A DNA stretch of 64,000 nucleotides from Mogibacterium sp. (GTDB lineage Bacteria; Bacillota; Clostridia; Peptostreptococcales; Anaerovoracaceae): contig JAFRGD010000014.1 of NCBI GenBank assembly GCA_017433975.1, forward strand, positions 62,001 through 126,000, in the 5' to 3' direction. Numbering within the stretch: the first letter of the stretch is position 1; each line of letters begins with the position of its first letter. Positions 5,280-35,349 of this stretch are shown one piece after another. A model generated the notes under the pieces. The model was not told the DNA's origin. It ran no database searches and was given only the letters and a program-made list of their open reading frames with translations. Both the position numbers and the translations under genes were made by a program.

Positions 5280-5495
5280 ATGGCACTTTCATTAGATTCC
5301 AAAGTCAGAGATATCCTTCGTTCCCCAGAGGGCAAAGCCGTCATGGAAAAGTATGCTCCAGGCTCCACTTCGGACCCGCGCATGAAACTCGTTGGCGGCC
5401 TGACCTACCGTAAACTGCTCAGCTATCCGGAATCCGCCGAGGTTGCGGTTCATGCGGATGAGATCGACGCCGAACTGAAGGCCTGCTCGAGATAA
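5280..5495 (+). CDS. Small helical protein of 71 residues, function unknown
   Basis: ATG at 5280 has a good ACAGGAGG site eight bases upstream; an in-frame extension to 5139 lacks one. The sequence (DILRSPEGKAVMEKYAPG, SDPRMKLVGGLTYRKLLSYP, ending in a DEIDAELKAC helix) resembles the small all-helical domain seen alone or fused to various enzymes in Clostridia and Actinobacteria, in which a PG...P-x-hydrophobic-K turn precedes a second helix pair. No catalytic residues are evident. It stands alone, followed by its own terminator. Confidence 0.75.
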   Translation: MALSLDSKVRDILRSPEGKAVMEKYAPGSTSDPRMKLVGGLTYRKLLSYPESAEVAVHADEIDAELKACSR

Positions 5496-5512: not shown

Positions 5513-5541
5513 GACGCCTGCTTTGCCGGGCGTCTTTTTTA
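5513..5541 (+). terminator. Intrinsic terminator of the 71-residue protein gene
   Basis: GACGCC...GGCGTC stem followed directly by TTTTTTATT; it extends into the last codons of the convergent PucR gene. Confidence 0.75.
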
Positions 5542-7074
5542 TTTGCTGCTGAGGACGGCCTCGATGTCCATCGCTTTGAGAACCATCTCTAGTTGGAGCC
5601 GCTTGTCCGGGTCGCTGAAGTCAATTCCGAGGTCCCGCTCGATCCGCGCAATTCGGTCGATCAGGGTGGATCTATGGATATACAGCTTGCGAGCCGCGGC
5701 CGTGTACGACAGGTTTTCGTCCAGGAACGTCTTCAGCGTCTCGAGGTACGAAATGTCGGACTCCTGGTCGTGGCTGAGCAGCGTCGCGAATCCCGAAGGA
5801 TAATACGTCTCGACCGGCAGGCCGCCGAGCGAATTGATGATCATCTCGGTGAGCGCATAGCTCTCGAAATAGTACAGCTGCTCCCCCGCCGCGAGCAGCA
5901 GGCCGTTTTCGACCGCGGAAAGGGATTGCTGATAATACACTTTGACGTTGAAAAGGTCGCTGAATTCGTTGGAAATCCCCGCGCAGAGGCCCATGCTCCG
6001 AAGCAGTTCGCCCAGCTTCTGATTGAACGGAATCCGCGGGTCTGACGCGCCGGCCGCCCGGAGCGTGTCAAAATTGACAAAGGCGACGATGTCGTTGTCA
6101 TGTACGAACGCGTAGGAATCCGCGAAGGTATCCTCAAAGATGTCGCAGATGTAGGCCATCGGCAACTGGTTGTAGCTGCTGGTGTAGCGGAGGCAGATGC
6201 ACCGGTACGCGGTCTGCCGGTTGGACCCTGTAAGGAGCAACCGCTGGGACTGTGAAAGCGGCAGCTCCTGGACCAGGCTTCGGAGAACCCGTTTCATCGA
6301 CGCCTCCGCGCCGTTGATGATCTGCGGGTCCTTGGCGATCGCGAGCTGAAGGCACTCCGCGAGGTGCTCCGCCAGCCGGTCCTCCCCGTCCACGAACTCC
6401 CCGTCCTGCAGCGAAATGACAACGCAGCCCTCGTACTGGTCATTTTTATTAAAAAGATTTACGCAGAGTGCTTTATTCCCGTGGATGTCCAGCCGGATGG
6501 CGTTCCGGCGGTCCGTCATCAGGTCTGACACAGAGAGGTACTTGGACATCGTGCCGGAACTCAGGAATCCTCCGTCCGTGACGGCCCAGTTACTGTCAGT
6601 CAACTGCGTGACGGACCCCGCGATGACGCGGAAGGACTTATCCAGGACATAAACCGCCTTGCGGAAGATCGGACCGGCGTCTCTCACGATGCCTTGGATG
6701 TTCGGCTCCTCGATCAGCCCGCGGAGCATTCTATCGTCCCATTCGTCGTACTTGTCGTAAACGCTTTGCACAAACTGGTAGACCTTGAAGAAGTCCGCCC
6801 GGTTCCGGATGAGGATCACGCACATCTTATCTTTATAGTAATTGAGCGTCAGGTTCTCGCCGATGCAGACCAGGACGCTATCCTTTTGAATCCGGGGGCG
6901 CTTCGGCAGATGCTCCACCGTCGCCAGATACAGATGGTCCGACAGGAACAATTCGTCGGTGTCCATGTAGAACTCCGGACGTGGCAGATGGAGCTCCCGC
7001 GACCGCGGCCCGACGATTTCGGCCTTGTAAACCGCCTTCAGCTCATTATACAAAATATCCGCATTCAGCTTCAT
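5539..7074 (-). CDS. PucR/CdaR-type transcriptional regulator
   Basis: 511 residues. The N-terminal two thirds is a sensory region without an obvious named fold; the C-terminus has the PucR helix-turn-helix: TLKTFLDENLSYTAAARKLY followed by IHRSTLIDRIARIERDLG. It is a paralogue of the regulator at 23469-25001 (both begin MKLNA-x-ILY and share the PRF/PEFY-x-x-DE segment). It is divergent from the SDR/unknown/GcvT operon starting at 7217, with 142 bases between, so it most likely controls that operon. PucR-type proteins commonly answer to a pathway substrate; the ligand here is unknown. Start has a GGGAGG site. Confidence 0.85.
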   Translation of the reverse strand: MKLNADILYNELKAVYKAEIVGPRSRELHLPRPEFYMDTDELFLSDHLYLATVEHLPKRPRIQKDSVLVCIGENLTLNYYKDKMCVILIRNRADFFKVYQFVQSVYDKYDEWDDRMLRGLIEEPNIQGIVRDAGPIFRKAVYVLDKSFRVIAGSVTQLTDSNWAVTDGGFLSSGTMSKYLSVSDLMTDRRNAIRLDIHGNKALCVNLFNKNDQYEGCVVISLQDGEFVDGEDRLAEHLAECLQLAIAKDPQIINGAEASMKRVLRSLVQELPLSQSQRLLLTGSNRQTAYRCICLRYTSSYNQLPMAYICDIFEDTFADSYAFVHDNDIVAFVNFDTLRAAGASDPRIPFNQKLGELLRSMGLCAGISNEFSDLFNVKVYYQQSLSAVENGLLLAAGEQLYYFESYALTEMIINSLGGLPVETYYPSGFATLLSHDQESDISYLETLKTFLDENLSYTAAARKLYIHRSTLIDRIARIERDLGIDFSDPDKRLQLEMVLKAMDIEAVLSSK

Positions 7075-7216: not shown

Positions 7217-8122
7217 ATGGCTTTTACAGAATCCGATAAGGCAATGCTGGAGGGATACATCGCGGCCGCCAGACCGTTCGCGGACATGTTCTCCGTCAAG
7301 GATAAGGTCGCGCTCGTGACCGGCGGATCGTCGGGTCTCGGCTTTGATATCACGCTGCGGCTCCTGCAAGGCGGCGCGAAGGTCGTAATCGCATCGAACT
7401 CCCGCATCGAGGAGGCAGCCGCCATGTCGCTCCTGATTGAACAGGGCTACGAAGGCAGCGTCAAATTCTGCTTCACCGACGTGCGGAACGAGGATGAAGT
7501 CGCGGCGCTGGTCGATTATACCGTCGAAACGTACGGGTCCCTCGACATCTTCGTCAACAGCGCGGCGATCTGGAACTACGCCAAGATCTACGACCTGCCG
7601 AAAGAAGACCTCGCGCTCATCTTTGAAACCAATGTCTACGGCGCGTTCTTCGGCGTCAAATACGTCAGCAAATACATGAAAGAGCACGAAATCCCGGGCA
7701 AAATCGTCCTGATCTCGTCCAACAGCCCGGTCATGCCTTACCCGCTGTTCGGCGGCTACCCGCACTACGCGTCCAGCAAGGCCGCGGTCATGGGCCTCGT
7801 TACCGAGGCGGCCAAGGAACTGAAGCGCTTCGGGATCATGATCAACTCGATCGCCCCGGGCGGCATGGTCACCCCGGGCGCAGCCGGCAACCTCGCGAGC
7901 GACGGGATCACCGAAGAGCAGCAGGACGAATTCTACGACGAGCTGATGGTCTGGCAAGTCGACGGCCAGCTCCCGGTCGACCAGGTCGGCATCATGGCTT
8001 ACGCGTTCTGCACGCCGGTCGCTGACGGAATCACCGGCGAAACGATCTTTGTCGACGGCGGCGCCAGCCACAACATCGTGAAATATCAGGCCGCGATCGA
8101 CGCCTATCCGGCAGAAGACTAG
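7217..8122 (+). CDS. Short-chain dehydrogenase/reductase (module A)
   Basis: 301 residues of the classical SDR fold: TGGSSGLG nucleotide loop, NSAA (NNAG equivalent), the Ser of VLISSNS and the YASSK catalytic Tyr/Lys. A roughly 25-residue N-terminal extension before the Rossmann domain is shared with the SDR at 29813. It should oxidise a secondary alcohol or reduce a ketone with NAD(P). First gene of an operon with the unknown Cys-rich protein (12-base gap) and the GcvT-like protein; AAGGAGG site. Module B at 16.5-19.8 kb has the same three families in another order. Confidence 0.9.
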   Translation: MAFTESDKAMLEGYIAAARPFADMFSVKDKVALVTGGSSGLGFDITLRLLQGGAKVVIASNSRIEEAAAMSLLIEQGYEGSVKFCFTDVRNEDEVAALVDYTVETYGSLDIFVNSAAIWNYAKIYDLPKEDLALIFETNVYGAFFGVKYVSKYMKEHEIPGKIVLISSNSPVMPYPLFGGYPHYASSKAAVMGLVTEAAKELKRFGIMINSIAPGGMVTPGAAGNLASDGITEEQQDEFYDELMVWQVDGQLPVDQVGIMAYAFCTPVADGITGETIFVDGGASHNIVKYQAAIDAYPAED

Positions 8123-8134
8123 GAGGAAAAAACG

Positions 8135-9364
8135 ATGAGCAAGAAAATCGATGGAAGAATTCCGCGGGAGTCCGGCGACGGCGCTGCCTTCAAGCAGTAC
8201 AACGCCGTGCAGTCCCCGTGGAACAAACTGATGTCCTACCAGGACGCGTTGCACTACGCGTCCCGCTTTGAGGCGGTCCTCTCCGCGGCGGTCACGCAGG
8301 CGTACCGGATCATCATCCCGGACTACGAGACGCGCGCTTCCGAAATGTGCACGGAAGCCTACACGCGCCTCTACAACACCGGCCTCTATTACCCGAACGA
8401 CGACGGCTTTGGCATCCACCCGTTCATGTGCGGGTCGTATCCGGGCGCGCTGATCGGCGACAAGGGCGACGACGCGCTCCTGATGTGCGGCCGTTGCAAT
8501 GACTTCGGGACCTATCGCTGCGAAAAAGAACTCGACGTTTGCGACTGGGACATCTGCGGCTCCGAGCTCTGCCGCGCGACGACGATGTCGCTGCAGGGCC
8601 AGGCGGACGCGACCGAGAGCCGCCACCGCAAGGGCCACAAGCTCGACTACCTGATGGTCGAGGCCAAGGGCTGCGGCGACCGCCACTGCCGCATCATCGC
8701 GGAGAGCCGCGAGAAGTACCCGGCGCCGGAACACGAGCTCTGGCAGTCCTTCGGACCGGCCGTCTCGGACGATTACAAGAAGTATACCGAGGAAGAAGAC
8801 TGCGTGGACGAGTCGATGATGTTCCGCGAGGAGTGCGACTACCACTTCGTGAACGGGACGAATAACGAGACCGACTCCTCCAACCAGATGGTCAACCTGT
8901 CCACAGCAGCCTCGCTTTACATGCTCCCGGCGATTGACAACGCGGTCAAACTCGGCTACACCACCGCGGAAAACGCGGAATGGATCAAAAAATGCGTCCT
9001 CGAGGCCGCCGGCAAGGCGATGTTCGGCGAGCGCTACGCCATCCGCGCCTGCCGCGAGTGGCTCGGCGCCCCGAATGAAATCGGCGAGGACGGACGGCTC
9101 CTCGGCGGTGTCATCGAGATGCTCCTCCAGTCACTGGTCTGCGGTTACGAAATCGAAGCCTTCAACAAAGACGAGGTCATCTACGTGATCAACCGCGGCG
9201 ACCTCGCAATCACCGGCACGCAGTCGATGTGCGAAGCGCACCTTTACATGTGGCAGGGCATGGTCAAAACGCTGGTCAACGCGCAGTGGTCCGTTTGGGA
9301 GGAGGACTCCCCGAAGGGCAAGATGCGCATCAAGATCGCGAAGAAGATCGATAAGTTCATGTAA
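8135..9364 (+). CDS. Unknown Cys-rich protein, paralogue of 18485-19762 (module A)
   Basis: 409 residues, no family assigned with certainty. Its paralogue in module B shares the start (MSKKIDGR/MSNKIDDR), P-W-x-KL-x-S-x-x-D-A-x-HYA, NDFGTYR-x-EKELD, W-D-I-x-GSE-x-CR, MVEA-x-GCGD-x-HCR, GKA-x-FGE and a KIDKF tail. The conserved Cys/His residues (CR, GCGD, HCR) could bind a metal or act as nucleophile. The layout faintly resembles the L-2-amino-thiazoline-4-carboxylate hydrolase or V4R-like families, which I rate as weak. It is always next to a GcvT-like protein, so it may generate, bind or present that enzyme's substrate. Strong AGGAGG site. Confidence 0.8.
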   Translation: MSKKIDGRIPRESGDGAAFKQYNAVQSPWNKLMSYQDALHYASRFEAVLSAAVTQAYRIIIPDYETRASEMCTEAYTRLYNTGLYYPNDDGFGIHPFMCGSYPGALIGDKGDDALLMCGRCNDFGTYRCEKELDVCDWDICGSELCRATTMSLQGQADATESRHRKGHKLDYLMVEAKGCGDRHCRIIAESREKYPAPEHELWQSFGPAVSDDYKKYTEEEDCVDESMMFREECDYHFVNGTNNETDSSNQMVNLSTAASLYMLPAIDNAVKLGYTTAENAEWIKKCVLEAAGKAMFGERYAIRACREWLGAPNEIGEDGRLLGGVIEMLLQSLVCGYEIEAFNKDEVIYVINRGDLAITGTQSMCEAHLYMWQGMVKTLVNAQWSVWEEDSPKGKMRIKIAKKIDKFM

Positions 9365-9375
9365 GGAGGCCGGCC

Positions 9376-10422
9376 ATGAATAAAAACATATTTGCACACG
9401 ATGAATGGAAGCGCGCGGAGCACATGGCGGTCCGGGAGTGCGTCGGATACTACCTCTTTACACACCAGCTCATGGAAGTTACTGGGCCGGACGCCTGCCG
9501 GTTCCTCGACTACATCTATCCGAACAACATCGCGTCCCTCGCGGTCGGCCGCGACCGCTACACGACCATGCTGGACGACAACGGTGAAATCATCGACGAC
9601 GTCGTCATCCTGCGGCTCGAAGACGAGAAATACTGGGTCTCCACGCTGTATGGGACCAAGGCCGACGACTGGTTTTACTACCACTCCGAAGACTTTGACG
9701 TCGATACGTGCGAAATCACCGAGGACTGGCACATGTTCTCCATCCAGGGCCCGAAGTCCCCGGACGTTATGAACGCGATCCTGCGGGACGGCGTGGACGG
9801 AATGAAATTCTTCCAGAACCGCTTTGACGAAATCCGCGGGGCGAACGGCGCCGACGGGGTCGAGGTCCTCGTGAACCGCGGCGGCTTCACCGGAGAAAAG
9901 TTCGGCTACGAAGTCTACTGCGCGGCGGACGACGCGGACGCAGTTCAGGACGCCATCGACGCGGCGGTCAAGGCCGCCGGCGGCCGGGAGATCACCGAGT
10001 TTCAGGTCTTCGCATGGACCCTCCCGACCGAAGCGGGCTTCTACTACATGAGAGACCTGAACCACACCAACCCGTTCGAAGTCGGCCTGGACAAGAACAT
10101 CAACTGGGACAAGGACTTCATCGGCAAGGCTGCGCTCCTCAAGATCAAGGACGCCGGCCCGGCGAGAGAGATGGTCGGCTTTGAGGTCTGCGACGCGAAC
10201 GAGGACTTCTACATCCGCTCCAAGCAGTACGGCGGCCCGGGCGAGCCGGTCTACATCGACGGTGAGGATGAAGAGGTCGGCCGCGTCTCCAAGTTGGTCT
10301 ACTCCTACGTGAAGAACGTGAACAACGGCTACATCCTCGCAAAGAAGGGCGCCCTCAAGGTCGGCGACCGCATCAAGATCCATGGCTACGACTGCGTGAT
10401 CACCGAGAAGAACTGGCTGTAA
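9376..10422 (+). CDS. GcvT-like THF-dependent C1 (aminomethyl/demethylase) transferase (module A)
   Basis: 348 residues of the GcvT/DmdA/LigM family, which transfers a methyl or methylene group from a substrate to THF. Visible: YTTMLDDNGEIIDDVVI with the folate-contacting Asp pair, GGFTGEKFGYEVY (equivalent to TGYTGE-x-G-x-E), LPTEAGFYYMRDL, and the C-terminal barrel with FIGKAALLKIK. No gcvH, gcvP or lpd is nearby, so this is not the glycine cleavage system; a dedicated demethylase-type role is inferred. Coupled to the unknown Cys-rich gene (11-base gap) and followed by a strong terminator. Confidence 0.88.
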   Translation: MNKNIFAHDEWKRAEHMAVRECVGYYLFTHQLMEVTGPDACRFLDYIYPNNIASLAVGRDRYTTMLDDNGEIIDDVVILRLEDEKYWVSTLYGTKADDWFYYHSEDFDVDTCEITEDWHMFSIQGPKSPDVMNAILRDGVDGMKFFQNRFDEIRGANGADGVEVLVNRGGFTGEKFGYEVYCAADDADAVQDAIDAAVKAAGGREITEFQVFAWTLPTEAGFYYMRDLNHTNPFEVGLDKNINWDKDFIGKAALLKIKDAGPAREMVGFEVCDANEDFYIRSKQYGGPGEPVYIDGEDEEVGRVSKLVYSYVKNVNNGYILAKKGALKVGDRIKIHGYDCVITEKNWL

Positions 10423-10453
10423 CGACTATCTTGCATTAACAATCAAAACAAAA

Positions 10454-10508
10454 GACGGATCTGGAGTTCATCCTTTTGATGAACTCCGGATCCGTCCTCT
10501 TTTTCCCT
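10454..10508. terminator. Intrinsic terminator between convergent operons
   Basis: Long stem GACGGATC-T-GGAGTTCATC pairing with GATGAACTCC-G-GATCCGTC, loop CTTTT, then CCTCTTTTTCCC. It ends module A and can act for the SDR gene on the other strand. Confidence 0.85.
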
Positions 10509-10532
10509 TTCTATTGGAAAAGGTCCGTTTTG

Positions 10533-11414
10533 CTATTTATCCATGCGGGAGAGCATGTGCTGCACGATCATGTCAAACGTAAAGGCACCGTTCGGGTTTT
10601 CCTTCAGGCCGGCTGTAACGCCAACCATGTTGCCATAGTCGACCATCAAGTGGACGCCGGAGATGTAGGAGGCCATGTCGCTGTTGAGGAACACGATCGG
10701 TGCGCCCATTTCCTCTGGTACGGCCAGCCGCTGCGCGTAACCAGTGTATTTCAGCAGGTTGTCCCGGCCGCCGGTCATGACCGCAAAGTCGTCGATCAGC
10801 CCGGTGTCGGTCGAACCCGGGAGCACTGCGTTGACGCGAATGCCCCGCGGGGCAAAGACTTCTTGATACTTCGCGACCAGATAGTTCAGTGCGAGTTTGG
10901 AATACGCGTAGCCAAGGTTGCCGGAAGCCTTCGACAGCGGGGTCGCCTCGAGCGCCGCAAGGAATTCGTCCCAGCCTTTGATGTCGAGGAGTTCGACGTA
11001 ATGGTTCTTGTTTCCCTCGAGTTCCCAGCCGTAGCCGCCGTTGGAGGTCATATAGGCGATGGCGCCGCCCTTGGTCATGCGGTCGCAGAGGTATTCCTCG
11101 GTGATGTATTTGTTGGAAAGCAGGTCGATCGTCACGGTCTCGATAAAGGTGTTGTGCAGGCCGGACGCCCCCGCGATGCCGAAGAAGCAGTCGATGTGAT
11201 CCGGAATGGCCGCGAATGCCTTGTCGATCGCCGCGCGGTCTGAAAGGTCTGTGGAGATGAACTCATAGATGCCCGGCACGTCCGGCTTGCTGCGGCTGAG
11301 CGCATAAACCTTTGCCCCGAGGTCCACCAGCATCGCTGCGGCGGCCTTTCCCATGCCGCTCGAGGCGCCGGTCACGACGACGGTCTTTCCTTGATACCCG
11401 AAATAATCCTTCAT
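10533..11414 (-). CDS. Short-chain dehydrogenase/reductase
   Basis: 293 residues; TGASSGMG nucleotide loop, GIAGASG, MTSNGG (catalytic Ser region) and YAYSK. The shortened middle and the long insertion before YAYSK (residues about 140-175) resemble the 3-alpha-hydroxysteroid/coniferyl-alcohol dehydrogenase branch, and its closest relative in the window is the SDR at 16524. Substrate unknown. AAAGGAG site. It is the last of the minus-strand genes before the terminator shared with module A. Confidence 0.88.
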   Translation of the reverse strand: MKDYFGYQGKTVVVTGASSGMGKAAAAMLVDLGAKVYALSRSKPDVPGIYEFISTDLSDRAAIDKAFAAIPDHIDCFFGIAGASGLHNTFIETVTIDLLSNKYITEEYLCDRMTKGGAIAYMTSNGGYGWELEGNKNHYVELLDIKGWDEFLAALEATPLSKASGNLGYAYSKLALNYLVAKYQEVFAPRGIRVNAVLPGSTDTGLIDDFAVMTGGRDNLLKYTGYAQRLAVPEEMGAPIVFLNSDMASYISGVHLMVDYGNMVGVTAGLKENPNGAFTFDMIVQHMLSRMDK

Positions 11415-11468
11415 ACTGTATAACTCCTTTCATCATTTGCAATTGAGAACTATTTTATATCATCACGG

Positions 11469-12824
11469 TCAGGCACGCTTTAACGCGCGCTTGTTCCGCC
11501 ACGTTCCTCGCAGATAGTGGATCCACGTGATCGTAAAGCCGCCGATAAAGCCAAACAGGATGCAATACCATACGATCCGGTAGCCAAACGGCTCCCGGTT
11601 GTACAACGTATACGCGCTTAGCACGCGAACGACCAGCGCAAAGATGGACGTCCGGGTAACTGCATATCCATCGCCGGCCCCCTGGAACACGCCGAGGATC
11701 GGCATGTATCCCGCAAGCACCAGCATTGCGAGCGCCGTCACACGAATGTGCTCCGAGCAGAATGCCTCCGCCGCCTCGCTGATCCCAAACAGTCCGATGA
11801 TCGGATGGGAAAAGGTGATTGCGAGGAACGCCAGCACCCCGGTCATGGCGAAGGCTAGGAGCAGCCCCTGCCGCATCCCCTGCTCTACCCGCTTCATGTT
11901 CCCGGCCCCGATGTTCTGCCCGGTATACGTCGCCATCGCGACCTGAACCGTGCTGATTGGCATGCGAATATACGTCTCGATGCGCATCGCTACCGTGTAA
12001 GACGCAGTCATCGCCTGTCCGAAGCCGTTCACGACCCGCTGAACGAACAGGAGCCCGAGCGAAGCAATCATCTGCTGCAGGGTGATCGGAATCCCCTGCC
12101 GGACGATGCCCGACGCGATGTCCCGGTCGTACTGCCAATTATCCTTGGAATAACGGAACTCCGGGTACCGTTTCCACAGATAACGGAACGACGCGAAGCA
12201 GGACCCGGCTTGCGCAATCACGGTCGCGACCGCGGCGCCTGCAACGCCCAGGCCAAACCCCGCCACAAAGAGCAGATCCAGAACGATATTGATTCCCGAG
12301 GAGATCATCAGAAAATACAAACTCGCCTTGCTGTCCCCCATCGACCGGAGCAACGCTGCGACGATATTGTACCCGAACTGAAAGAGCAGTCCACTCAGAT
12401 AGATCCTGGAATAAACCAACGCTCCGTTCAGATAGCTCTCCTGCACGTTGAGGAGGTGCCGGAACACCGGTCCGGTCAGCGCGAGGCCAACCACGGTGAC
12501 GATGAGCCCGATTCGGAGAAGAAGGCGGATTCCGACCGCCGCATGGCGGACCAGGCCTTCCCGGTCACCCGCGCCGAACAGCTGCGAAATCAGGACGCCC
12601 GCTCCTGCGGAAAACCCGACCGCGACGGCCAGGAACAGGTACGTAAACACGCCCGTCGTTCCGACCGCCGAGAGCGATGTTTCGCCCGCGAAATTCCCGA
12701 CGATGATCGTATCAACAGTGTGGTATAACTGCTGCAGAAGCAGCCCGCCGTAGACCGGAAGTGAGAACCGGAAAATCTGCTTCCACGGCGTTCCTTCCGT
12801 CATGTTGATGGTTTTGTTACGCAT
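11469..12824 (-). CDS. MATE-family efflux transporter
   Basis: About 451 residues with twelve hydrophobic segments in the two-lobe MATE arrangement; PVYGGLLLQQLYHTVDTIIVGNF and the related second-half segment IPITLQQMIASLGLLFVQRV are typical. MATE proteins export organic cations or drugs driven by Na+ or H+. The stop of the upstream hydrolase ends at 12826 and the ATG is at 12824, so translation is coupled; a TTG at 12836 would be an alternative start. Pairing with an esterase suggests uptake or export of a small ester-derived compound, which is inference. Confidence 0.9.
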   Translation of the reverse strand: MRNKTINMTEGTPWKQIFRFSLPVYGGLLLQQLYHTVDTIIVGNFAGETSLSAVGTTGVFTYLFLAVAVGFSAGAGVLISQLFGAGDREGLVRHAAVGIRLLLRIGLIVTVVGLALTGPVFRHLLNVQESYLNGALVYSRIYLSGLLFQFGYNIVAALLRSMGDSKASLYFLMISSGINIVLDLLFVAGFGLGVAGAAVATVIAQAGSCFASFRYLWKRYPEFRYSKDNWQYDRDIASGIVRQGIPITLQQMIASLGLLFVQRVVNGFGQAMTASYTVAMRIETYIRMPISTVQVAMATYTGQNIGAGNMKRVEQGMRQGLLLAFAMTGVLAFLAITFSHPIIGLFGISEAAEAFCSEHIRVTALAMLVLAGYMPILGVFQGAGDGYAVTRTSIFALVVRVLSAYTLYNREPFGYRIVWYCILFGFIGGFTITWIHYLRGTWRNKRALKRA

Positions 12825-12825
12825 A

Positions 12826-13779
12826 TTACTCGTCAAAGACGCTCTTGATGAAGCTGTTCGTCATTCCGATGCATTCCATGACCATCGGATTAAAGGCTGC
12901 CTCAAAGGCGTGCCATACGCCGCCGACAACACGGAAGTCCACAATGACCCCGGCTTCCATGAGCTTTTGCGCATATGTAATGGCTTCGTCTCTCATCGGA
13001 TCGAGCTCTCCGATGTAGAAATACGTCTGTGGGAGGCCCGAAAAGTCATCGGCCAACGCCGGAGAAGCATACGCCGGGATTTCTCCCTCAAGGCCGGACA
13101 GATACATATCCCAAGCCAGCTTGTTCTGCGGTCCGTTCCAGGCGCGGAGGTCTGTAATGTCCTGCATAGACTTCGTGCAGCACCGCGCGTCCAGCATCGG
13201 CTGCAGCGGGATCTGCGCGGCGATCTTAGGATAGCCCAGGTCTCTCGACAGAAGTGACAGCGCCGCGGCCAGCCCGCCGCCTGCACTGACTCCATACACG
13301 ATGATTTTATCCGGGTCGATGTTCAGCTCCTCTGCATGCTCAACGGTCCAGCAAAGCGCAGCATAACAATCTTTGATTGCCGCCGGATACGGTGCCTGCC
13401 AGGAAAGCCGGTATTCCGGCATCACAGCGACACAGTCCGTTGCGCGAATGGCCATCAATGCCCCGCCTTCGCTGTTTTCAACGTTCCCAAGGTACATTCC
13501 GCCGCCGTGGATATAGAATACAACCGGCGCCTTCTCGGTGCGGCCTACCTTCTCGAGAATCCTGACCTTGACCTCCGGATCCTCCGGCAGCCGGCCCGGA
13601 ATCATCCGGTCAACAGTCGAGATGTCATCATGCGGCCTGGCATATCTCTTGAGCAGTTCACAGTTCTGCTCATACGCAGCCTGTGCTGTTTCCATCGTTA
13701 CCAAAGGAGTATCCGGGAGGGAAGCGAAGGCTTTTCGAAACGCCGGATGAACTCTGGCTTCATTGATTCTGTTTTCCAT
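12826..13779 (-). CDS. Alpha/beta-hydrolase (acetyl esterase / hormone-sensitive-lipase type)
   Basis: 317 residues. HGGGMYLGN is the oxyanion-hole HGGG motif and GVSAGGGLA the nucleophile elbow (Ser). A late Asp (GELDPMRDEA) and His (VVGGVWHAFE) complete the expected triad. This family cleaves short-chain esters in the cytosol. GAGGAGC site before the ATG. Immediately upstream of and coupled to the MATE transporter. Substrate not deducible. Confidence 0.92.
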   Translation of the reverse strand: MENRINEARVHPAFRKAFASLPDTPLVTMETAQAAYEQNCELLKRYARPHDDISTVDRMIPGRLPEDPEVKVRILEKVGRTEKAPVVFYIHGGGMYLGNVENSEGGALMAIRATDCVAVMPEYRLSWQAPYPAAIKDCYAALCWTVEHAEELNIDPDKIIVYGVSAGGGLAAALSLLSRDLGYPKIAAQIPLQPMLDARCCTKSMQDITDLRAWNGPQNKLAWDMYLSGLEGEIPAYASPALADDFSGLPQTYFYIGELDPMRDEAITYAQKLMEAGVIVDFRVVGGVWHAFEAAFNPMVMECIGMTNSFIKSVFDE

Positions 13780-13878
13780 AGTAATTGCTCCTCAACATGT
13801 TAAAGGTGAGAAAAGGCAGAGCCGTTTCGTCTTCTGCGGCCCTGCCCCTGTTTTCAAGACATCCTTTAAAAACACAGA

Positions 13879-14970
13879 TTACTTCAGCGAATAATCGATT
13901 GCGAACTTGATGCCGACGTTCTTGTCCTTCAACTCGTGAATCGCCTCGTTCAGCTCTTCCTGCTTGATCTTCTTGCTGATGAACTTCGAGACGTCAACGC
14001 CGCTTCTAACCAGATCCGCGGCCTGGTTGAAGGTGATGTCGATTGCTGCGGTTCCGCCGCCCTTGATCGTCAGGGAGTTGAAGCAAACAGCGACTGCGTC
14101 GAAGCCGCTCGCCTCGTGGTGAATGCCGGTGATGCCCAGCACTGCGCCCGGACGGGCGAATTTGCAGAACGCGTCAATCGCGTCGTTATGGCCGCAGGCA
14201 TCCATCCAGACATCCGCTGTGCACTTCTTGCCGCCGTAGCCGTAGGTCAGGCCGAGGTGCTCAATCAGCGTCTCACCGAGGTCCTGTGTGGAAGGGTTGC
14301 AGGTCAGCAAGCCGTATTCCTCTGCCGCGAAGTCAAGACGCTTCTGTGCGAAGTCGACCATCACGATCTTCTCATAGCCGTGGAGATGTTTGAGAATCAG
14401 CGCAGCACCGAGTCCGATGACGCCGCATCCGTAAATGACAGCGCTCTTGCCGCCCGGCTGAGCCGCTACGAGCTGGAGCACCTGTCTGCCGGAGATGTTC
14501 AGCGGCTCAAACATGCAGAGGTTCTCAAGTCCGAGGGACTTGTCCAGCATGATTGCGCTCGGCTGCAGATCGACCGACGGAATCGCGTAGTTCCCTTCCA
14601 GTCTGAAATCCGGGAGTACCAGGTATTCGGAGAAGCCGCCGATGCCGCCCATGCGGCGTCTGTCGTGGAACGCGTATCCCATGTTCGGGAACAGCCAGTC
14701 GCCGACTTCGACGCCCTTGACGTTCTTACCGACAGCGATGACTTCCGAAACCATCTCATGGCCGAATTCTGAGCCGTCCCAGATCATGTGCTTTGGTCCG
14801 CCTTCGCCGTGCCAGATGGACTCCATGTCGCCGCCGCAGATAGACGCGATGAGATTCTTTACGATGACGTCGTTATCGCCGACCTGATCCGGGAGCTCCT
14901 TCTCATCAAAAGTCGCTGCACCGTATGTGTTATAGTCGTGATAAATTGCCGCTTTGTATTTGAGACCCAT
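13879..14970 (-). CDS. Zinc-type medium-chain dehydrogenase (MDR superfamily)
   Basis: 363 residues with a GroES-like N-terminal domain (SICGGD catalytic Cys, EFGHEMVSEV) and a Rossmann domain (IYGCGVIGLGAALIL). The four-Cys structural zinc loop of classical ADHs is missing. It is a close paralogue of 39532-40590 (shared KAAIYH, DVI-x-KN, GGFSEYL-x-LPDF-x-LEG, GLLTCNP). Likely oxidises an alcohol or polyol with NAD(P). Its leader holds a 10-bp inverted repeat (14989-15029) just upstream of the AAGGAGG site, a candidate control element. Confidence 0.9.
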   Translation of the reverse strand: MGLKYKAAIYHDYNTYGAATFDEKELPDQVGDNDVIVKNLIASICGGDMESIWHGEGGPKHMIWDGSEFGHEMVSEVIAVGKNVKGVEVGDWLFPNMGYAFHDRRRMGGIGGFSEYLVLPDFRLEGNYAIPSVDLQPSAIMLDKSLGLENLCMFEPLNISGRQVLQLVAAQPGGKSAVIYGCGVIGLGAALILKHLHGYEKIVMVDFAQKRLDFAAEEYGLLTCNPSTQDLGETLIEHLGLTYGYGGKKCTADVWMDACGHNDAIDAFCKFARPGAVLGITGIHHEASGFDAVAVCFNSLTIKGGGTAAIDITFNQAADLVRSGVDVSKFISKKIKQEELNEAIHELKDKNVGIKFAIDYSLK

Positions 14971-14988
14971 TGTTTACCTCCTTGAATC

Positions 14989-15029
14989 GGTTGCCGATAT
15001 CTTCTTAATAATAAGTATAATCGGCAACC
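14989..15029. promoter_or_regulatory. Inverted repeat in leader of dehydrogenase gene
   Basis: Arms GGTTGCCGAT (14989-14998) and ATCGGCAACC (15020-15029), perfect over 10 bp, separated by an AT-rich 21-base spacer that contains a TATACT box on the minus strand. It ends a few bases before the ribosome binding site of the gene at 13879-14970, so it could be an operator or an RNA hairpin acting on initiation. Confidence 0.5.
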
Positions 15030-15103
15030 ATGTTTTTAAGTATTCTTAAAAATTAGCATTTAATGTAGGCAAAATTGATAACTACGCTTTTGCCCCCTGC
15101 GAT

Positions 15104-15946
15104 TTAGTTAATCTGCGGCAGCGTGTTGAACGCCTGTGTACCGTCGTCCATGAGGACGTCCACACCGTTGATGTAGGACGCGCGGTAGCTGCACAGGAAA
15201 TCGATCAGATTCGCGATTTCAAAGGCGTTTCCGTACCGGCCGAGCGGCATGTCCGCCATTTCCTTTGCGATGCGCTCCGGCTCTGCGTCGATCAGCGCTC
15301 TGTGCATCGGCGTCAGGATTCTGCCCGGCGCGATGGAGTTGATCCGGCACTGTTTCTTTCCGAAGCGGCCGACATTCATCTTCACATAGTTGTAGACGAA
15401 CATCTTGCTGAACATGTACGCGCGGCCTGTGTCTGACGCCATCGCGCGGAGCTTGTCATACAGCCCGTCCGGATCGTCCTTGACGCTGGTGAACGCCTTC
15501 ATCATCGGCTCCGGCACCTGCGGCATCAGGTACACCGCGGAAGAGGTGAAGCACACCATGGAGCCGCCCTCCGCGAGCACCGGCAGGAACGCCTCCACCA
15601 TGTTGACCGTACCGATCGCATTCGCCTTCAGAATCTTTTCGATTCCTTCCTCCGTCGGAAGTTTCGATACCAGAATCGGCGAGAGGCCCGCTGTATTAAT
15701 TACGTTCTTTACCTCTCCCATGGAAGCTGCTTTTTCCGCCGCTGCCTGGACCTGCGCCGGATCCGCCACGTCCGTGACCAGATATTCCACGTCGATATTC
15801 TGACGCTTCAGGTTGTCCGCACAGGCTTTTAGCGGTTCTTCCTTGATATCACAGAGCAGCAGGGAGTATCCCTGGTGCCCGAATACGTTCGCGGTGGCAA
15901 ACCCCATGCCGCCGCATCCTCCTGTGATAACAGTAACGTTTTTCAT
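15104..15946 (-). CDS. Short-chain dehydrogenase/reductase
   Basis: 280 residues; TGGCGGMG nucleotide loop, NTAG, the Ser of CFTSSAVY and YMFSK. A long insert between the Ser and the Tyr (about residues 140-175) is shared with the SDR at 25185, which it otherwise resembles (TDVADPAQVQA, ILTPMHRA, a terminal GVDVLMDDG). GAAAGGAG site. It lies upstream of the zinc-type dehydrogenase on the same strand (133-base gap), so a two-step alcohol oxidation is possible. Confidence 0.88.
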   Translation of the reverse strand: MKNVTVITGGCGGMGFATANVFGHQGYSLLLCDIKEEPLKACADNLKRQNIDVEYLVTDVADPAQVQAAAEKAASMGEVKNVINTAGLSPILVSKLPTEEGIEKILKANAIGTVNMVEAFLPVLAEGGSMVCFTSSAVYLMPQVPEPMMKAFTSVKDDPDGLYDKLRAMASDTGRAYMFSKMFVYNYVKMNVGRFGKKQCRINSIAPGRILTPMHRALIDAEPERIAKEMADMPLGRYGNAFEIANLIDFLCSYRASYINGVDVLMDDGTQAFNTLPQIN

Positions 15947-16175
15947 GTTGCTCTCCTTTCAGACGGATATAGATAATGCGTATAGTAATTAGTTAAAGCT
16001 TGCTATTCTGCGTTTTGCTTCTTTGAAGATATATAAGTTATCGATATCAGTAAATCCGTCAAACGGCTGATAATAGCGTTGTTTCATCAACTTTTTGTAC
16101 GGTCATTCTTATACATAAAGCGATCCGATTCCTCTTCGAAGATTCTATTAATGACGCTGTTCGTCAAACCGTCGG

Positions 16176-16430
16176 CTATCGTCCGTTGCGGATCCGCTCG
16201 CGGACCGCGTCGATTCTCCGTTCCATCTCTTCAATCTCCCGCAGTTGTTCTTTCTCGGATTCGGATGTCTGGATGATTCGAATGATCCCGCCGTTTCGGA
16301 CAACGAGCCGTTGCGGCGGTTGATGCCCGCGTTCTCAATTTCATCGATCAGTGAATAGGAAATCCCCTCTCTTACCGGAATACCGGCGTCGCGGTAGTTG
16401 TTGACGTCATCCGCCGTAAGACAGTCAAAT
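16176..16430 (-). pseudogene. Frameshifted gene remnant
   Basis: In the 577-base gap between two SDR genes the minus strand holds coding-like sequence in two frames: FDCLTADDVNNYRDAGIP...SLIDEIENAGIN in one, then RLVVRNGGIIRIIQ and a charged helix EKEQLREIEEMERRIDAVRE ending RIRNGR-stop in another. The switch lies near 16315-16330. No start codon with a ribosome binding site precedes it (a stop lies just upstream). I do not recognise the family. The remainder of the gap (15947-16175) shows nothing I can name. Confidence 0.4.
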
Positions 16431-16472
16431 CATGATCTCCTTATGGTCGTTTATTCTTTGTGCTTTTCATAG

Positions 16473-16512
16473 AAAAAACTCCCTTCGCGGCGTCCGCCAC
16501 GAAAGGAGTTTT
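16473..16512 (-). terminator. Intrinsic terminator of module B
   Basis: On the minus strand AAAACTCCTTTCGTGG pairs with CCGCGAAGGGAGTTTT, followed by a T run. It ends the minus-strand operon whose last gene is the SDR at 16524. Confidence 0.85.
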
Positions 16513-16523
16513 CTGCGTTTCCG

Positions 16524-17366
16524 CTATTTCGTCAGTTCTCCGATCTCCCACAGGCTGGCGGTACCGTAGTCGATGTAGATGACCTGTCCGCTCATGTAGC
16601 TGAAGATGTCGCTGCCGATCGCGACCATCGGGTGTCCCATCTCTTCCGGAGAAGCCCAGCGGCCGTTCCAGAATTCAAGACTGTACTTCTCGAGGATCGC
16701 CTGCCCCTGCTCCGCGTTTCCGGTAATCGACTTGTTGAAGTCGTCCGTCAGGCCGGTCTTGGTCATGCCAGGCGCGATCGCGTTCAGGCGGATCTTGCGG
16801 CCGATGAATTCCGGGCTGTGGCACTTCGACATGACGTACGCGTTCTGGCACTGCTTCGCAAAGACGTAGCCGTCGCCGGTCTCTTCCGGATGCGCTTCAT
16901 ACCATGCGAGCGCCTCGTCCCAGGAGGTCGTAGCGATGACTTCCAGGCACTGCGGCAGGCGGTCGCGCCACGCTTTTCCTCCGTCGGAGGAGATAAACGT
17001 CACGGAGCCGTTGTCCGCGATGCGCGGGAGCACGAGTTCGGTCAGGTACTTGAAGCTGTAGAAGTTCGTCTTCTGAACTTCGAGCGCATTCGTCTTGCCG
17101 AGGCTGTTCGAGATGCCGTGACAGATGAACAGCGCGTCGACCTTCTCCGGGAGCTCCGGAATGATCATGTCGATGCCTTCCTTGGAGCCGAGGTCGCACT
17201 TGATCTCCTTGGTCACCGCGAAGTCGAGCGGTTTTCTGCGGACGGTGGCATAAACGTTTGCGCCCAGCTCGACGAGCAGCTTTGCGGCAGCCTTACCCAT
17301 GCCGGAGCCGGCGCCGGTGATGACAACATTCTTGCCTTCATAACCGAATAACTGTTTCAAATCCAT
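16524..17366 (-). CDS. Short-chain dehydrogenase/reductase (module B)
   Basis: 280 residues; TGAGSGMG loop, FICHGISNS in place of NNAG, the Ser of FISSDGG and YVFAK. It belongs with the SDR at 10533 (both start with a FGY-x-GK segment and carry the insertion before the Tyr). It is the third gene of module B, 41 bases after the GcvT-like gene, with a GAAAGGAG site. Expected to be an NAD(P)-dependent alcohol dehydrogenase; substrate unknown. Confidence 0.9.
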   Translation of the reverse strand: MDLKQLFGYEGKNVVITGAGSGMGKAAAKLLVELGANVYATVRRKPLDFAVTKEIKCDLGSKEGIDMIIPELPEKVDALFICHGISNSLGKTNALEVQKTNFYSFKYLTELVLPRIADNGSVTFISSDGGKAWRDRLPQCLEVIATTSWDEALAWYEAHPEETGDGYVFAKQCQNAYVMSKCHSPEFIGRKIRLNAIAPGMTKTGLTDDFNKSITGNAEQGQAILEKYSLEFWNGRWASPEEMGHPMVAIGSDIFSYMSGQVIYIDYGTASLWEIGELTK

Positions 17367-17407
17367 AGTCTTTCTCCTTTCTCTTTATCCTTCATCCTTC
17401 TGTCGCA

Positions 17408-18421
17408 TTAAATGAAAGGGATCTCGCAGAGCACCGCCTCGAATCCATGGAGCATGACTTTATCGCCAGGGTTCAGCGAAGCATCGACGATCGCGTAGCC
17501 GATGTTCTTGTCATTCACATAGCTGTAGGTCACCTTGGTCACGCGGCCTTTTTCCTCGCCGTCCACCAGAACCGGGGTTCCCGGGCCGCCGATGTTTCTC
17601 GCAGGAATGAAGATATCCTCTTCATCGACCGTGAAGCCGAGCAGCTTTCTCGCCGGGCCTTCTTCTTTGACCTTCAGCAGCGCGTCCTTGCCGATGAAGT
17701 CCTTATCCCAGTTGATGCCCTTGGTCATGTTGACCTCGAACGGATTGTTGCGGGAGAGGTCGCACATCAGGTAGTAACCAGCCTCGGTCGGGAGCGACCA
17801 GACCATGATCTGGATGTCCGTAACCTGCTGTCCGCCGTATTTTGGCGCCAGCTCGCGGAGCTTCGCAACCGCCTTCTTGGTGTCTTCCTTCTTGACGTAC
17901 AGCTCATAGCCGAGCTTCTCGCCGGTGAAGCCGCCCTTATTGACCTTGACCGCGGTTCCGTCCATCGTCTTGTCAACAATCTGGAAGAATTTGACATCGT
18001 CAACGCCCTCTGCAATGAGCTCGTTCATCAGCTCTGCAGCCTTCGGTCCCTGAATCGAGTACATATCCCAGGCTGCGGTGATGACTTTATACTCGACAGC
18101 ATAGTCGCCCTTCACCTGGTTGAACCAAGGAACGGTCTTTTTGGTGTAGAGTGTCGAAATCCAGAAGCATTCTTCGCCCATGCGGAAGATGACGACGTCG
18201 TCGATGATCTCGCCCTTTTCGTTCAGCATAGTCGTGTAACGGCCGCGCGTCACATCCAGGTTCGCAATATTCTTCGGGCAAACATAGTCCAGGAAAGCCG
18301 CGGCGTCCGGGCCGGTGACTTCGATGAGCTCGTGAGTGAAAAGGTACCAACCCACTGCCTCACGCACTGCCATGTGATCTGCACGTTTCATTGCATCGTT
18401 TTTATATACATTTTTATACAT
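17408..18421 (-). CDS. GcvT-like THF-dependent C1 transferase (module B)
   Basis: 337 residues, paralogue of 9376-10422. Shared: MKRADHMAVREAVGWYLFTH, EVTGPDA, YTTMLNEKGEIIDDVVIF (folate-binding Asp), GGFTGEKLGYELYV, LPTEAGYYLM, NPFEV and INWDKDFIGKDALLK. Start chosen at 18421 because AAAGGAGG lies ten bases upstream; an upstream in-frame GTG/ATG has no site. It should transfer a methyl or methylene group from an unidentified donor to THF. Lies 63 bases after the unknown Cys-rich gene. Confidence 0.88.
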   Translation of the reverse strand: MYKNVYKNDAMKRADHMAVREAVGWYLFTHELIEVTGPDAAAFLDYVCPKNIANLDVTRGRYTTMLNEKGEIIDDVVIFRMGEECFWISTLYTKKTVPWFNQVKGDYAVEYKVITAAWDMYSIQGPKAAELMNELIAEGVDDVKFFQIVDKTMDGTAVKVNKGGFTGEKLGYELYVKKEDTKKAVAKLRELAPKYGGQQVTDIQIMVWSLPTEAGYYLMCDLSRNNPFEVNMTKGINWDKDFIGKDALLKVKEEGPARKLLGFTVDEEDIFIPARNIGGPGTPVLVDGEEKGRVTKVTYSYVNDKNIGYAIVDASLNPGDKVMLHGFEAVLCEIPFI

Positions 18422-18484
18422 TTTGTATGATCCTCCTTTATCGCAATCTGACAAAGCTCGTTCTTTTGATCCGAAACGGCTTTC

Positions 18485-19762
18485 CTACAGGCAGAACTTG
18501 TCGATCTTCTTGCAGATCTTCACGCGGTAAATGTTCTCCGGAACGCCTTCCTTCTCCTCTTCGAAGGTCCACTCCGGGCTGACCAGCGTCTTGACCATGC
18601 CGTAGAAATACGCGTTGTAAGCGGTCGTCAGCGAATTCAGCTTGCGGTTGAACGCCGCGCGGTCGATCTCGTAGATGACTTCTTCTTCGTTAAATGCGAT
18701 AACCGTATAAGGAACGAGGACGCTCTGCAGGATCACTTCGATGTATCCGCCGAGGACGCGGCCGTCGTTCATGCCGCGCGGGACGCCGAGCCAGTCGTGG
18801 AGACCGTCAATCGCGAACTTCTCGCCGAACTGCGCCTTGCCTGCGCCGCGGAACACGCACTCGATGATGAAGTCGACCTGTTCCTGCGTGAATTTGCCCG
18901 CTCTGATCAGCTGGTTGATCGGGTTGATGCAGTAGTCGCTTCCGAGCGCATAGGTGACCGCTCCGTCAGCATAGTAGCTGTCCGCATCCTTCTCCATGCA
19001 GGTACCGCTGCGGTACGTGAAGTCGTACTCACTGCGCATCTGCTGCGGCTCAGTGTACATCTCTTCTCTTGGAGTGAACTTGATCTGGTCCGCCGTAGCG
19101 ATCGGTCCGAAGTTGTCCCAGATCTTCTCGCGTGGAGGCATCGGGAACTTGGTTCTGTTCTCGCAGACGACGCGGCAGTGCAGGTCGCCGCAGCCTCTGG
19201 CCTCGACCATGTTGTACTCGCAGTTGTCTCCGCAGCACTTACCGATCTCCTCGAGGGAAGCGGTGGAAGTTCTGCAGATCTCAGAACCCATGATGTCCCA
19301 TGGGCAGGCATCGAGTTCCTTCTCAACGCGGTAAGTACCGAAGTCGTTGACGCGGCCCTGCATCAGCAGACGCTCGTCGCCGTTGTCACCGAAGACGCCG
19401 GCGCGGAAACCGCCGTTATTCTCGGTTCCGGTGAAGAACGGGTGCATGAAGTGATTTGCGAGATGGTAATCAACATAGTGCAGTCCAGGAGCGACCTCCA
19501 TGCCCTTCTCAGGGTCAAAGATGTAACGCTTGACGCCACAGTCCACCTTGCACATGATCGTGCAGCGCTCATCGTAATCCGGAATCAGGATACGAAGAAC
19601 TTCCTGGAACAGCGCGCCGATGACCGCGTGGTGGCGGCACGCATAGTGATAGGCATCATGGAAAGAAATCAGTTTTTCCCACGGCGTTTTCAATGCCGGG
19701 TGGTTCGGCAGCGACTTTGCGCCGACCTCCTTTGGAAGTCTGTCATCAATTTTATTGGACAT
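18485..19762 (-). CDS. Unknown Cys-rich protein (module B)
   Basis: 425 residues, paralogue of 8135-9364. The conserved core (NDFGTYRVEKELDACPWD, IMGSEICRTST, MVEARGCGDLHCRVV) is retained, and additional cysteines occur in a short KCCGDNCEY insert. The protein has no signal peptide or membrane segment. Conservation of the Cys/His cluster across two diverged copies argues for a metal site or catalytic thiol. It begins module B, downstream of a 14-bp perfect inverted repeat at 19811-19846. Family membership is unresolved; an ATC-hydrolase-like fold is a weak guess. Confidence 0.8.
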   Translation of the reverse strand: MSNKIDDRLPKEVGAKSLPNHPALKTPWEKLISFHDAYHYACRHHAVIGALFQEVLRILIPDYDERCTIMCKVDCGVKRYIFDPEKGMEVAPGLHYVDYHLANHFMHPFFTGTENNGGFRAGVFGDNGDERLLMQGRVNDFGTYRVEKELDACPWDIMGSEICRTSTASLEEIGKCCGDNCEYNMVEARGCGDLHCRVVCENRTKFPMPPREKIWDNFGPIATADQIKFTPREEMYTEPQQMRSEYDFTYRSGTCMEKDADSYYADGAVTYALGSDYCINPINQLIRAGKFTQEQVDFIIECVFRGAGKAQFGEKFAIDGLHDWLGVPRGMNDGRVLGGYIEVILQSVLVPYTVIAFNEEEVIYEIDRAAFNRKLNSLTTAYNAYFYGMVKTLVSPEWTFEEEKEGVPENIYRVKICKKIDKFCL

Positions 19763-19882: not shown

Positions 19883-20647
19883 CTATTCGACGACCGCGTT
19901 CTCCAGAATGAGTTCTTTCGCCTTCTGTCGGAGGACCTCTCCTTCGAGACCGGACAGATCTTCTCCAAAGAACATTTTGACCATGTCCATGCCCGACCCC
20001 TGCGACGCAGCGATCCGCTCCGCCTCCTTCTCGAGTTCCTCCGGTGAAGCTGTGAGGTTCTCCTCCGTGATGACACGCTTCAGCAACTGGTCTATCTTGT
20101 AGTCTCTGATCACGTCCCTGCGGACCTCTTCCCGGATCGCATCGACGTCGACATCCGCAGGCTGGATCTCCGGATTATAGAAGCTCTGGTATTTTAAACT
20201 CTGAAGGTTCCCGACCACCTGGTATTCGACCTCGTCCTCGATTGCGGCTTCCGACAGGTCGAGCGGCATCTTGTCGATGATCAGATCGAGCAGCGCGTCC
20301 GTCAGCGCTTCGCGCGATCTGTTGTAGCCTCTGATCCTGATACCTTTATAGTTCACGGTATCCCCGTCCGGTTCGTCTTGCAGTGAAACAGTTTCTACAA
20401 CCGGCTCTGGTTTCGGCTCATCTCTCGTAAAGGTGTCAACTGATGACCGAACGATGTTAGATTCCGGCACCACCACCGGCGTTTCCTTGGAGATTGTCTT
20501 GCGCGCGACCCGATACGCAAGAGGGAGGACAGCCGCCCCTCCGAGAACCACGCCGCACAAAAATGCCCGGGCCGCAGGAAGAACCGCATTCTTAACATCG
20601 ATCGTGATTCGGATGTCTTTTGTATCAGATGGAGAGTTGATACCCAT
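19883..20647 (-). CDS. Membrane-anchored protein with trigger-factor C-terminal-like domain
   Basis: 254 residues. Residues about 20-45 form one hydrophobic segment (AFLCGVVLGGAAVLPLAY), then a Pro/Glu-rich linker, then an all-helical region: YNRSREALTDALLDLIIDKM, DVDAIREEVRRDVIRDYKI, and LEKEAERIAA...LRQKAKELILENAV. The last parts match the chaperone arms of trigger factor (the typical V-x-x-D-L-LRRKA-x-x-L-x-x-NA ending). No ribosome-binding or PPIase domain is present. A membrane-tethered holdase or foldase for nearby enzymes is inference. Start at 20647 with GAGGTGA upstream. Confidence 0.65.
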   Translation of the reverse strand: MGINSPSDTKDIRITIDVKNAVLPAARAFLCGVVLGGAAVLPLAYRVARKTISKETPVVVPESNIVRSSVDTFTRDEPKPEPVVETVSLQDEPDGDTVNYKGIRIRGYNRSREALTDALLDLIIDKMPLDLSEAAIEDEVEYQVVGNLQSLKYQSFYNPEIQPADVDVDAIREEVRRDVIRDYKIDQLLKRVITEENLTASPEELEKEAERIAASQGSGMDMVKMFFGEDLSGLEGEVLRQKAKELILENAVVE

Positions 20648-20808
20648 TATGTCACCTCGCAAAACTTACTTTTGTATTATCTCATATATTATCAGTAACT
20701 GCGCAAACCGTCAACACTGCGGTCAAAGCCTCAACGAACCGGACCGGCCGCAGATTGCTGCGCGCCGGCCCGGCAGAATTACATTTTGTCAGCTTGCGTC
20801 CTGATTCT

Positions 20809-21702: not shown

Positions 21703-21775
21703 TTTCTTTTCTCCTTTCATCGTCCGGCTTCCATTCGCCGGGGTTAATAAATGGAAACGTTTTACTGTACAAACA

Positions 21776-27049: not shown

Positions 27050-27094
27050 TTTCATACCTCCATTATGAAAAAATCAACTGCTCAGGTTTTAAGA

Positions 27095-32466: not shown

Positions 32467-32506
32467 GATACTACTTCCTCCAAACTACCGCACTGCGTAC
32501 TTTCTA

Positions 32507-33978: not shown

Positions 33979-34025
33979 ATCGTTATCCTTCCGACGCTTG
34001 ACAAGATTCCGCGGGTTACCGCGGC

Positions 34026-34613: not shown

Positions 34614-34615
34614 AG

Positions 34616-35173: not shown

Positions 35174-35244
35174 AATAAAAGCTCCTTTCATGACTGCGAC
35201 ATATCGATAACGAACACCTGCCACAAAAGAAACACCTTGGCTGT

Positions 35245-35348: not shown

Positions 35349-35349
35349 T

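Follow-up and report, generated by a model that had tools for sequence, protein, structure and literature searches.

A protein without annotation and its obligate GcvT-like partner in Mogibacterium sp. and other Bacillota: a candidate tetrahydrofolate-dependent enzyme pair for harvesting one-carbon units

The stretch of DNA analysed here, referred to as the window, comprises 64,000 nucleotides of a contig (C11, JAFRGD010000014.1) of the 2.26 Mb draft genome of a Mogibacterium sp., which is 83% complete. The window encodes two copies of a protein without annotation, designated X, each beside a GcvT-like one-carbon (C1) transferase, designated T. The pairing of X with T is obligate. We propose, at what we judge to be just short of an even chance, that both together constitute a two-component tetrahydrofolate (THF)-dependent enzyme which takes a formaldehyde-level C1 unit off an organic compound, probably one of hydrophobic or phenolic nature, and that this carbon ends as formate with the formation of ATP. 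We regard this pairing as well founded, as we do the gene neighbourhoods and the missing annotation. The chemistry of X is put forward as a hypothesis, in which we infer its enzymatic role, its metal, the direction of the reaction, the oxidation level of the C1 unit and the contribution of a dehydrogenase.

An alignment of X was used to scan 84,980 species genomes, and 52 loci were obtained, which belong to Lachnospiraceae, Erysipelotrichaceae, Eubacteriaceae and further Bacillota and, in one bin, to Spirochaetales. Wherever a full-length X gene has room on its contig, which is the case for 53 of them, a full-length T gene adjoins it on the same strand; T is located downstream of X in 52 of these pairs and upstream, in reversed order, in one. 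Two more full-length X genes are located close to contig ends, where part of T is still present. X was also looked for in 398 independently sampled genomes of the phylum; it was present in three of them, and these three were likewise the only ones with a close T (E <= 1e-40). The divergences of X and T are correlated with a Mantel r of 0.96 (p 0.001), to which shared species history adds. The initial annotation had assumed a fixed company of both proteins and had proposed a survey of gene neighbourhoods. That survey bore the assumption out, as X, far from usually occurring without a GcvT-like gene, was never found without T as neighbour.

In the window the two pairs are part of modules that also include a short-chain dehydrogenase/reductase (SDR) gene and differ in gene order, namely SDR-X1-T1 on the plus strand (module 1, 7217-10422) and X2-T2-SDR on the minus strand (module 2, 16524-19762). 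X1 and X2 are 40% identical over 432 columns, while T1 and T2, which have a length of about 340-350 amino acids (aa), are 51% identical. The open reading frame (ORF) listed for T2 starts with a TTG at 18454, and homologues start at an internal ATG. That the same three families occur twice is correct as to the coordinates and as to X and T. The two SDRs, in contrast, differ in type: BLASTP gave no alignment of more than 82 residues between them, and they have the superfamily alone in common. As described initially, the modules lack gcvH and gcvP, neither of which was seen adjoining them in the ORF list (gcvP had no profile search); the standard GcvT and the GcvH of the host are encoded together on contig C12. 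A third pair, X3-T3, is located on contig C31 (locus L005) without an adjacent SDR.

The maximum-likelihood tree of X consists of two clades, which are split at 100/100 support. X1 (clade B) is found among sequences mostly of the rumen and gut Erysipelotrichaceae type, the nearest of which is 94% identical, and X2 (clade A) groups with proteins from Merdimonas and Cuneatibacter (81% identity). X3 is placed with weak support in the X2 half of the tree. One Merdimonas bin likewise contains three X-T pairs (L011, L022, L028). Because X1 and X2 belong to deeply split clades, each nearest to the copies of other species, and because the SDRs of the modules are not close kin, the modules cannot be called duplicated in a local sense. 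A recent local duplication is ruled out by the tree, and the pairs of the host are old paralogues or separate acquisitions.

T1 and T2 exceed the curated cut-off of PF01571 (GCV_T) with 146.1 and 131.2 versus 25.6 bits, but stay below those of the curated GcvT models PRK00389 (145.2-165.6 versus 300 bits) and TIGR00528 (118.7-125.6 versus 235.85 bits). The nearest PDB sequence of T2 is GcvT from T. maritima (E 9e-36), to which T is 29-34% identical. When 53 T sequences were compared with this protein and with two standard GcvTs, from the host genome and from Cuneatibacter, the positions Y83, D95/D96, E191 and E195 (T. maritima numbering) turned out to be kept in every T. In GcvT structures D96 is the catalytic Asp and the other kept positions line the folate pocket. 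Standard GcvTs also keep N112 and R227, which in T are replaced by S and by I/V/L, respectively; T further differs from GcvT in that it has no adjoining gcvH or gcvP and always occurs with X. Judged from these residues, T is plausibly active with THF and specialised away from lipoyl-protein chemistry.

For X nothing credible was matched in Pfam (searched with single sequences and with all 36 members, E up to 10), in NCBIfam (X1 and X2) or in the PDB (phmmer and profile). The AlphaFold model of X2 reached a predicted template modelling score (pTM) of 0.80 and a mean predicted local distance difference test (pLDDT) of 76, and that of its N half alone a pTM of 0.68. The models consist of two successive alpha/beta domains, and for both of them Foldseek and VIA-align gave TRAPP Bet3, H-NOX and the V4R sensors DmpR, PoxR and MopR as neighbours. 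The best VIA Z of the N half is 9.3 over 145 residues at 3.8 A, and the confined matches of the C half have a Z of about 7-8. It is likely, but not proven, that X is a tandem of two V4R/TRAPP/H-NOX-like domains. The V4R profile of Pfam-A matched none of the 36 members at E <= 10, and an internal repeat was undetectable by hhalign of the two halves, though both resemble one fold. From the V4R sensors X also differs in its predicted tandem arrangement and in having neither a DNA-binding nor an AAA+ part.

Dozens of invariant residues, many of them charged or polar, are distributed across both halves of X. All 55 sequences share an invariant C153, C163, E187 and C196, while H195 is found in 54, H107 in 53 and C191 in 44 of them. 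In DmpR zinc is bound by C151/E172/C177/C185 and phenol is held by H100/W128 (PMC7264223). Because the Cys/Glu/Cys spacing of C163, E187 and C191/H195/C196 in the first predicted domain of X resembles this zinc site, and a comparable His is present as well, the sequence and the model suggest a metal beside a small-molecule pocket.

The operon fhs-fchA-folD-focA, to which the initial annotation had pointed, is real; it is located at 31699-37083 on the minus strand and also carries folT and ygfA, in the order fhs-folT-ygfA-fchA-folD-focA. An energy-yielding harvest of C1 units fits the X-T clusters of many other species, which contain fhs, fchA, folD and sometimes focA. The gene order in locus L025 is X-T-SDR-MFS-SDR-fhs-fchA-folD-focA, and in L058 it is SDR-X-T-fhs-fchA-folD-focA. 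In the stretches examined fhs, folD or focA is located near X-T in 18 of the 52 loci and an fchA homologue in 16, while metF is found there in only one. Fhs is encoded by 51 of 53 X genomes, in some as contig-end fragments (genomes are counted as distinct here, since one is listed twice, as G026 and G108). MetF was undetected in 23 of 51 distinct X genomes, including the host of the window. The search of the host genome for carbon monoxide dehydrogenase/acetyl-CoA synthase (CODH/ACS) gave no full-length match and a single CdhC hit of 27 bits, located in a frame of 254 aa; full-length matches are present, in contrast, in Cuneatibacter, Alkalibacter and a few further X genomes. For the host we rejected acetogenesis from this carbon, as neither a full-length CODH/ACS nor MetF was detected in its genome.

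Because hosts without MetF or CODH/ACS could neither oxidise methyl-THF nor turn it into acetate by known routes, methylene-THF is the simplest product of T. Methylene-THF is probably the form in which the C1 unit enters and formate the form in which it leaves, ATP being gained; its level and direction are reasoned from gene content. Of the methyl or hydroxymethyl group considered initially, a C1 unit at the formaldehyde level is favoured; a methyl group delivered as methyl-THF is less so, given the 23 genomes without detected MetF and the host without full-length CODH/ACS.

A third fixed partner, an alcohol dehydrogenase of the SDR type, had been assumed as well, and this did not hold. A relative of the module-1 SDR lies at most 2.6 kb from X in 38 of the 43 clade-B pairs, but clade A uses other dehydrogenases, and no SDR accompanies the C31 pair or the pairs of L015 and L022, which rules out the SDR as a core member in general. 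The neighbours of the X2 group (L010-L013) are a coniferyl-alcohol-dehydrogenase-type SDR, another SDR, Zn alcohol dehydrogenases and an MFS carrier, with counterparts in the window at 13879-17366 and 28085. The core that stays constant is thus X-T, while the dehydrogenases change, which hints at different substrates undergoing the same C1 step. In 38 of 53 pairs X has a PucR homologue upstream, mostly in divergent orientation, and past this regulator homologues of the small protein at 5280-5495 are found in 25 of 52 loci (X1 clade).

The proposed reaction sequence would start with the import of the compound, for which the MFS carrier is one candidate. A neighbouring alcohol of the compound would be oxidised by an SDR or an alcohol dehydrogenase, and X would bind the product in its V4R-like pocket, where a metal at C163/E187/C196 (with H195 or C191) would polarise it and free the C1 unit. 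T would capture this unit on THF as 5,10-methylene-THF, FolD and FchA would oxidise and hydrolyse it to 10-formyl-THF, Fhs operating in reverse would convert the latter to formate and ATP, and FocA would export the formate. Both an aryl methylenedioxy bridge and a hydroxymethyl group that retro-aldol cleavage sets free once oxidation has taken place would fit as C1 donors, so that hydroxymethyl ketones and methylenedioxyphenyl compounds are chemically consistent substrate candidates. The farther-reaching idea is that X founds a new enzyme family, in which a tandem V4R-fold metalloenzyme with a dedicated GcvT-type subunit cleaves formaldehyde-level carbon (retro-aldol hydroxymethyl or methylenedioxy) from a plant or diet compound without corrinoid and without methyl-THF. 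This idea is tentative, and we would sooner expect it to fail than to hold.

Among known enzymes the GcvT-like protein BrdA opens a methylenedioxy ring and transfers the carbon to THF; a similar demethylenase, SesA, acts on sesamin (PMC5547118). Compared by description only, both proteins are GcvT-like as T is and pass formaldehyde-level carbon to THF, and the proposed X-T would share their end product. The trimethylamine N-oxide (TMAO) demethylase Tdm unites a metal domain, which differs from X, and a GcvT-type domain in one fused protein. T matches the Tdm model with E 2e-30 to 2e-36 and the solved structure 9q59 with E 6.6e-18, but attains only 125.6 and 105.8 of the 1100 bits of NF053776; moreover, X and T are separate genes, and X is without Pfam match. 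By analogy X-T would work like a split TMAO demethylase, outside the Tdm and SesA/BrdA families. DmdA, LigM and DesA are also members of the GcvT superfamily that transfer C1 units onto THF. They form methyl-THF, a product whose oxidation seems unavailable to many X hosts, and T reaches none of their NCBIfam equivalog cut-offs (103.1-112.8 of 410 bits for DmdA, 60.2-75.4 of 800 for DesA and 52.7-54.3 of 580 for LigM). No published description of the X-T pair, of V4R proteins with THF enzymes or of retro-aldol/GcvT combinations was found in the open literature, most subscription journals being outside the scope of this search.

Several observations weigh against the proposed enzyme. The best Foldseek E for X is 2.4e-3 at probability 1.00, none being at E <= 0.001, and a Z of 7-9 can come from a common arrangement; the pocket and the metal are readings from sequence and model. 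With N112 and R227 replaced, THF binding by T is not assured. In 34 of the 52 loci no fhs, folD or focA was found in the stretch examined, many of these contigs being short, and Fhs is common in Clostridia anyway. MetF is present in 28 of the 51 distinct X genomes, so that its absence from all X hosts is ruled out, and the genomes in which it went undetected include incomplete metagenome-assembled ones, a non-homologous MetF being possible as well. SesA and BrdA come from bacteria growing on berberine or sesamin and are described without an X partner.

Some of these points would suit an O- or N-demethylase that transfers a methyl group to THF and yields 5-methyl-THF, as DmdA or LigM do. T belongs to their superfamily and that of DesA, the 28 X genomes with MetF and the several with CODH/ACS could use methyl-THF, and a gene located about 2 kb upstream of X in Alkalibacter mobilis (L015:5902-7050) is, by sequence reading, URO-D/methyltransferase-like. 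However, where MetF is undetected methyl-THF would be a dead end, methionine synthesis excepted, and it is fhs, fchA and folD, not metF, that recur beside X-T, which makes a demethylase of this kind unlikely. The kinship of T with GcvT, whose partner is a carrier protein, raises the question whether X is a non-catalytic carrier that is loaded by another enzyme and from which T takes a C1 unit bound for example at C163 or C196, as GcvT does with the aminomethyl group on GcvH. The invariant cysteines and the obligate pairing would agree with this, but X matches no lipoyl-type domain, its conserved Cys/Glu set looks less like a flexible arm than like a metal site within a fold that binds ligands, and a constant third enzyme is missing, the SDR type being clade-dependent and the C31 pair having none beside it. 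We regard a carrier role as quite improbable.

The closest folds of X are sensor domains (DmpR, PoxR, MopR) and TRAPP scaffolds, as would be expected if X were a ligand-sensing or regulatory subunit or a chaperone of T that stays outside the chemistry. The dozens of invariant residues over both halves are more than a scaffold would need, and the strict one-to-one pairing with T also argues against such a role, for which we see only a small chance. The steps of C1-folate metabolism are all reversible and FocA can carry formate in both directions, which counts for a pathway in the opposite direction: formate would enter via FocA, Fhs, FchA and FolD would convert it to methylene-THF, and X-T would transfer a hydroxymethyl or methyl group onto an acceptor, either in biosynthesis or as an electron sink. 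PanB-like proteins, whose family is known to add a hydroxymethyl group, are encoded in the same region. But this direction costs ATP, and the dehydrogenases, MFS carriers and PucR-type regulators adjoining X-T look catabolic, so that its chance is smaller still. The release of a formaldehyde-level C1 unit by X and T is the reading we prefer.

Table 1. Genes of the X-T modules, their neighbours and the C1-folate run in the window.
Feature	Position	Strand	Remarks
Small conserved protein past PucR regulator, 71 aa from this start	5280-5495	+	No match in Pfam
PucR-type regulator, divergent from module 1	5539-7074	-	
Module-1 SDR dehydrogenase	7217-8122	+	
X1, protein without annotation, 409 aa, clade B	8135-9364	+	Two V4R/TRAPP/H-NOX-like domains predicted; fold inferred from X2 model
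T1, GcvT-like C1 transferase	9376-10422	+	PF01571, E 1.5e-42; pocket residues
Zn-dependent alcohol dehydrogenase, clade-A cluster	13879-14970	-	Related dehydrogenases directly after T in L012 and L013, near X-T in L076
Second SDR, clade-A cluster	15104-15946	-	64-69% identical copies adjoin X2-T2 orthologues in L012 and L013
Module-2 SDR, coniferyl-alcohol-dehydrogenase type	16524-17366	-	67-72% identical copies near X2 orthologues in L010-L013
T2, GcvT-like C1 transferase	17408-18421 (about)	-	PF01571, E 5.3e-38
X2, protein without annotation, 425 aa, clade A	18485-19762	-	Structure models
MFS transporter, candidate importer for clade-A cluster	28085-29497	-	MFS_1; homologues near X-T in L010-L013 and L025
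FocA-like formate channel	31699-32466	-	In X-T cluster of L025 and L058
FolD, methylene-THF dehydrogenase/cyclohydrolase	32507-33361	-	Near X-T in 15 of 52 loci
FchA, methenyl-THF cyclohydrolase-like	33361-33978	-	Homologues in 16 of 52 loci
5-formyl-THF cyclo-ligase-like protein	34026-34619	-	By sequence reading
Folate energy-coupling factor (ECF)-type transporter-like membrane protein	34616-35371	-	By sequence reading; similar gene follows focA in L058
Fhs, formate-THF ligase	35407-37083	-	PF01268, E 2.4e-274; near X-T in 11 of 52 loci

The window further contains five genes for proteins like PanB (ketopantoate hydroxymethyltransferase), located at 20809-21705, 26162-27055 and 27153-28019 on the minus strand and at 45596-46495 and about 47980-48813 on the plus strand. 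Those starting at 20809, 26162 and 45596 are confirmed by Pfam and the other two were named by sequence reading; relatives are found near X-T in L017 and L018. Because PanB likewise uses methylene-THF, these genes may represent a second type of C1-harvesting enzyme in the same island. A chaperonin-family protein (Cpn60/TCP-1) is encoded within this catabolic island at 42844-44529 (minus strand), and a 40-44% identical relative is located near the PanB-like and X-T genes of L017 and L018. Between X2 and the PanB-like genes, the product of 19883-20662 (minus strand) matches the C-terminus of trigger factor (PF05698, E 1.3e-13). A ferredoxin-reductase-like protein and two FAD amine-oxidase-type oxidoreductases are encoded in a row at 57814-62140 (minus strand) and possibly provide a further redox step of the island. 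Outside the window, the third X-T pair of the host has beside it a gene for a fused protein (L005:9430-10992), whose multi-span membrane part is, by sequence reading, like a sugar-type transporter. In Cuneatibacter sp. NSJ-177 glycine cleavage genes (L012:1258-5647) are located a few kb from the X2-T2 orthologues, a single instance of what may be a link with X-T.

In gut anaerobes O-demethylation and C1 harvesting are usually credited to corrinoid methyltransferases that feed methyl-THF. If the role proposed here is correct, X-T would form together with fhs, fchA, folD and focA a corrinoid-free route, which takes in methylene-THF and gives off formate and is usable without MetF and CODH/ACS. 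Non-acetogenic bacteria of the gut and rumen would thereby gain a self-contained route from the compound to formate and ATP, and an unannotated family of rumen and intestinal Erysipelotrichaceae and Lachnospiraceae would be given a function. This might explain some of the formate production and of the conversion of dietary compounds in the rumen and intestine.

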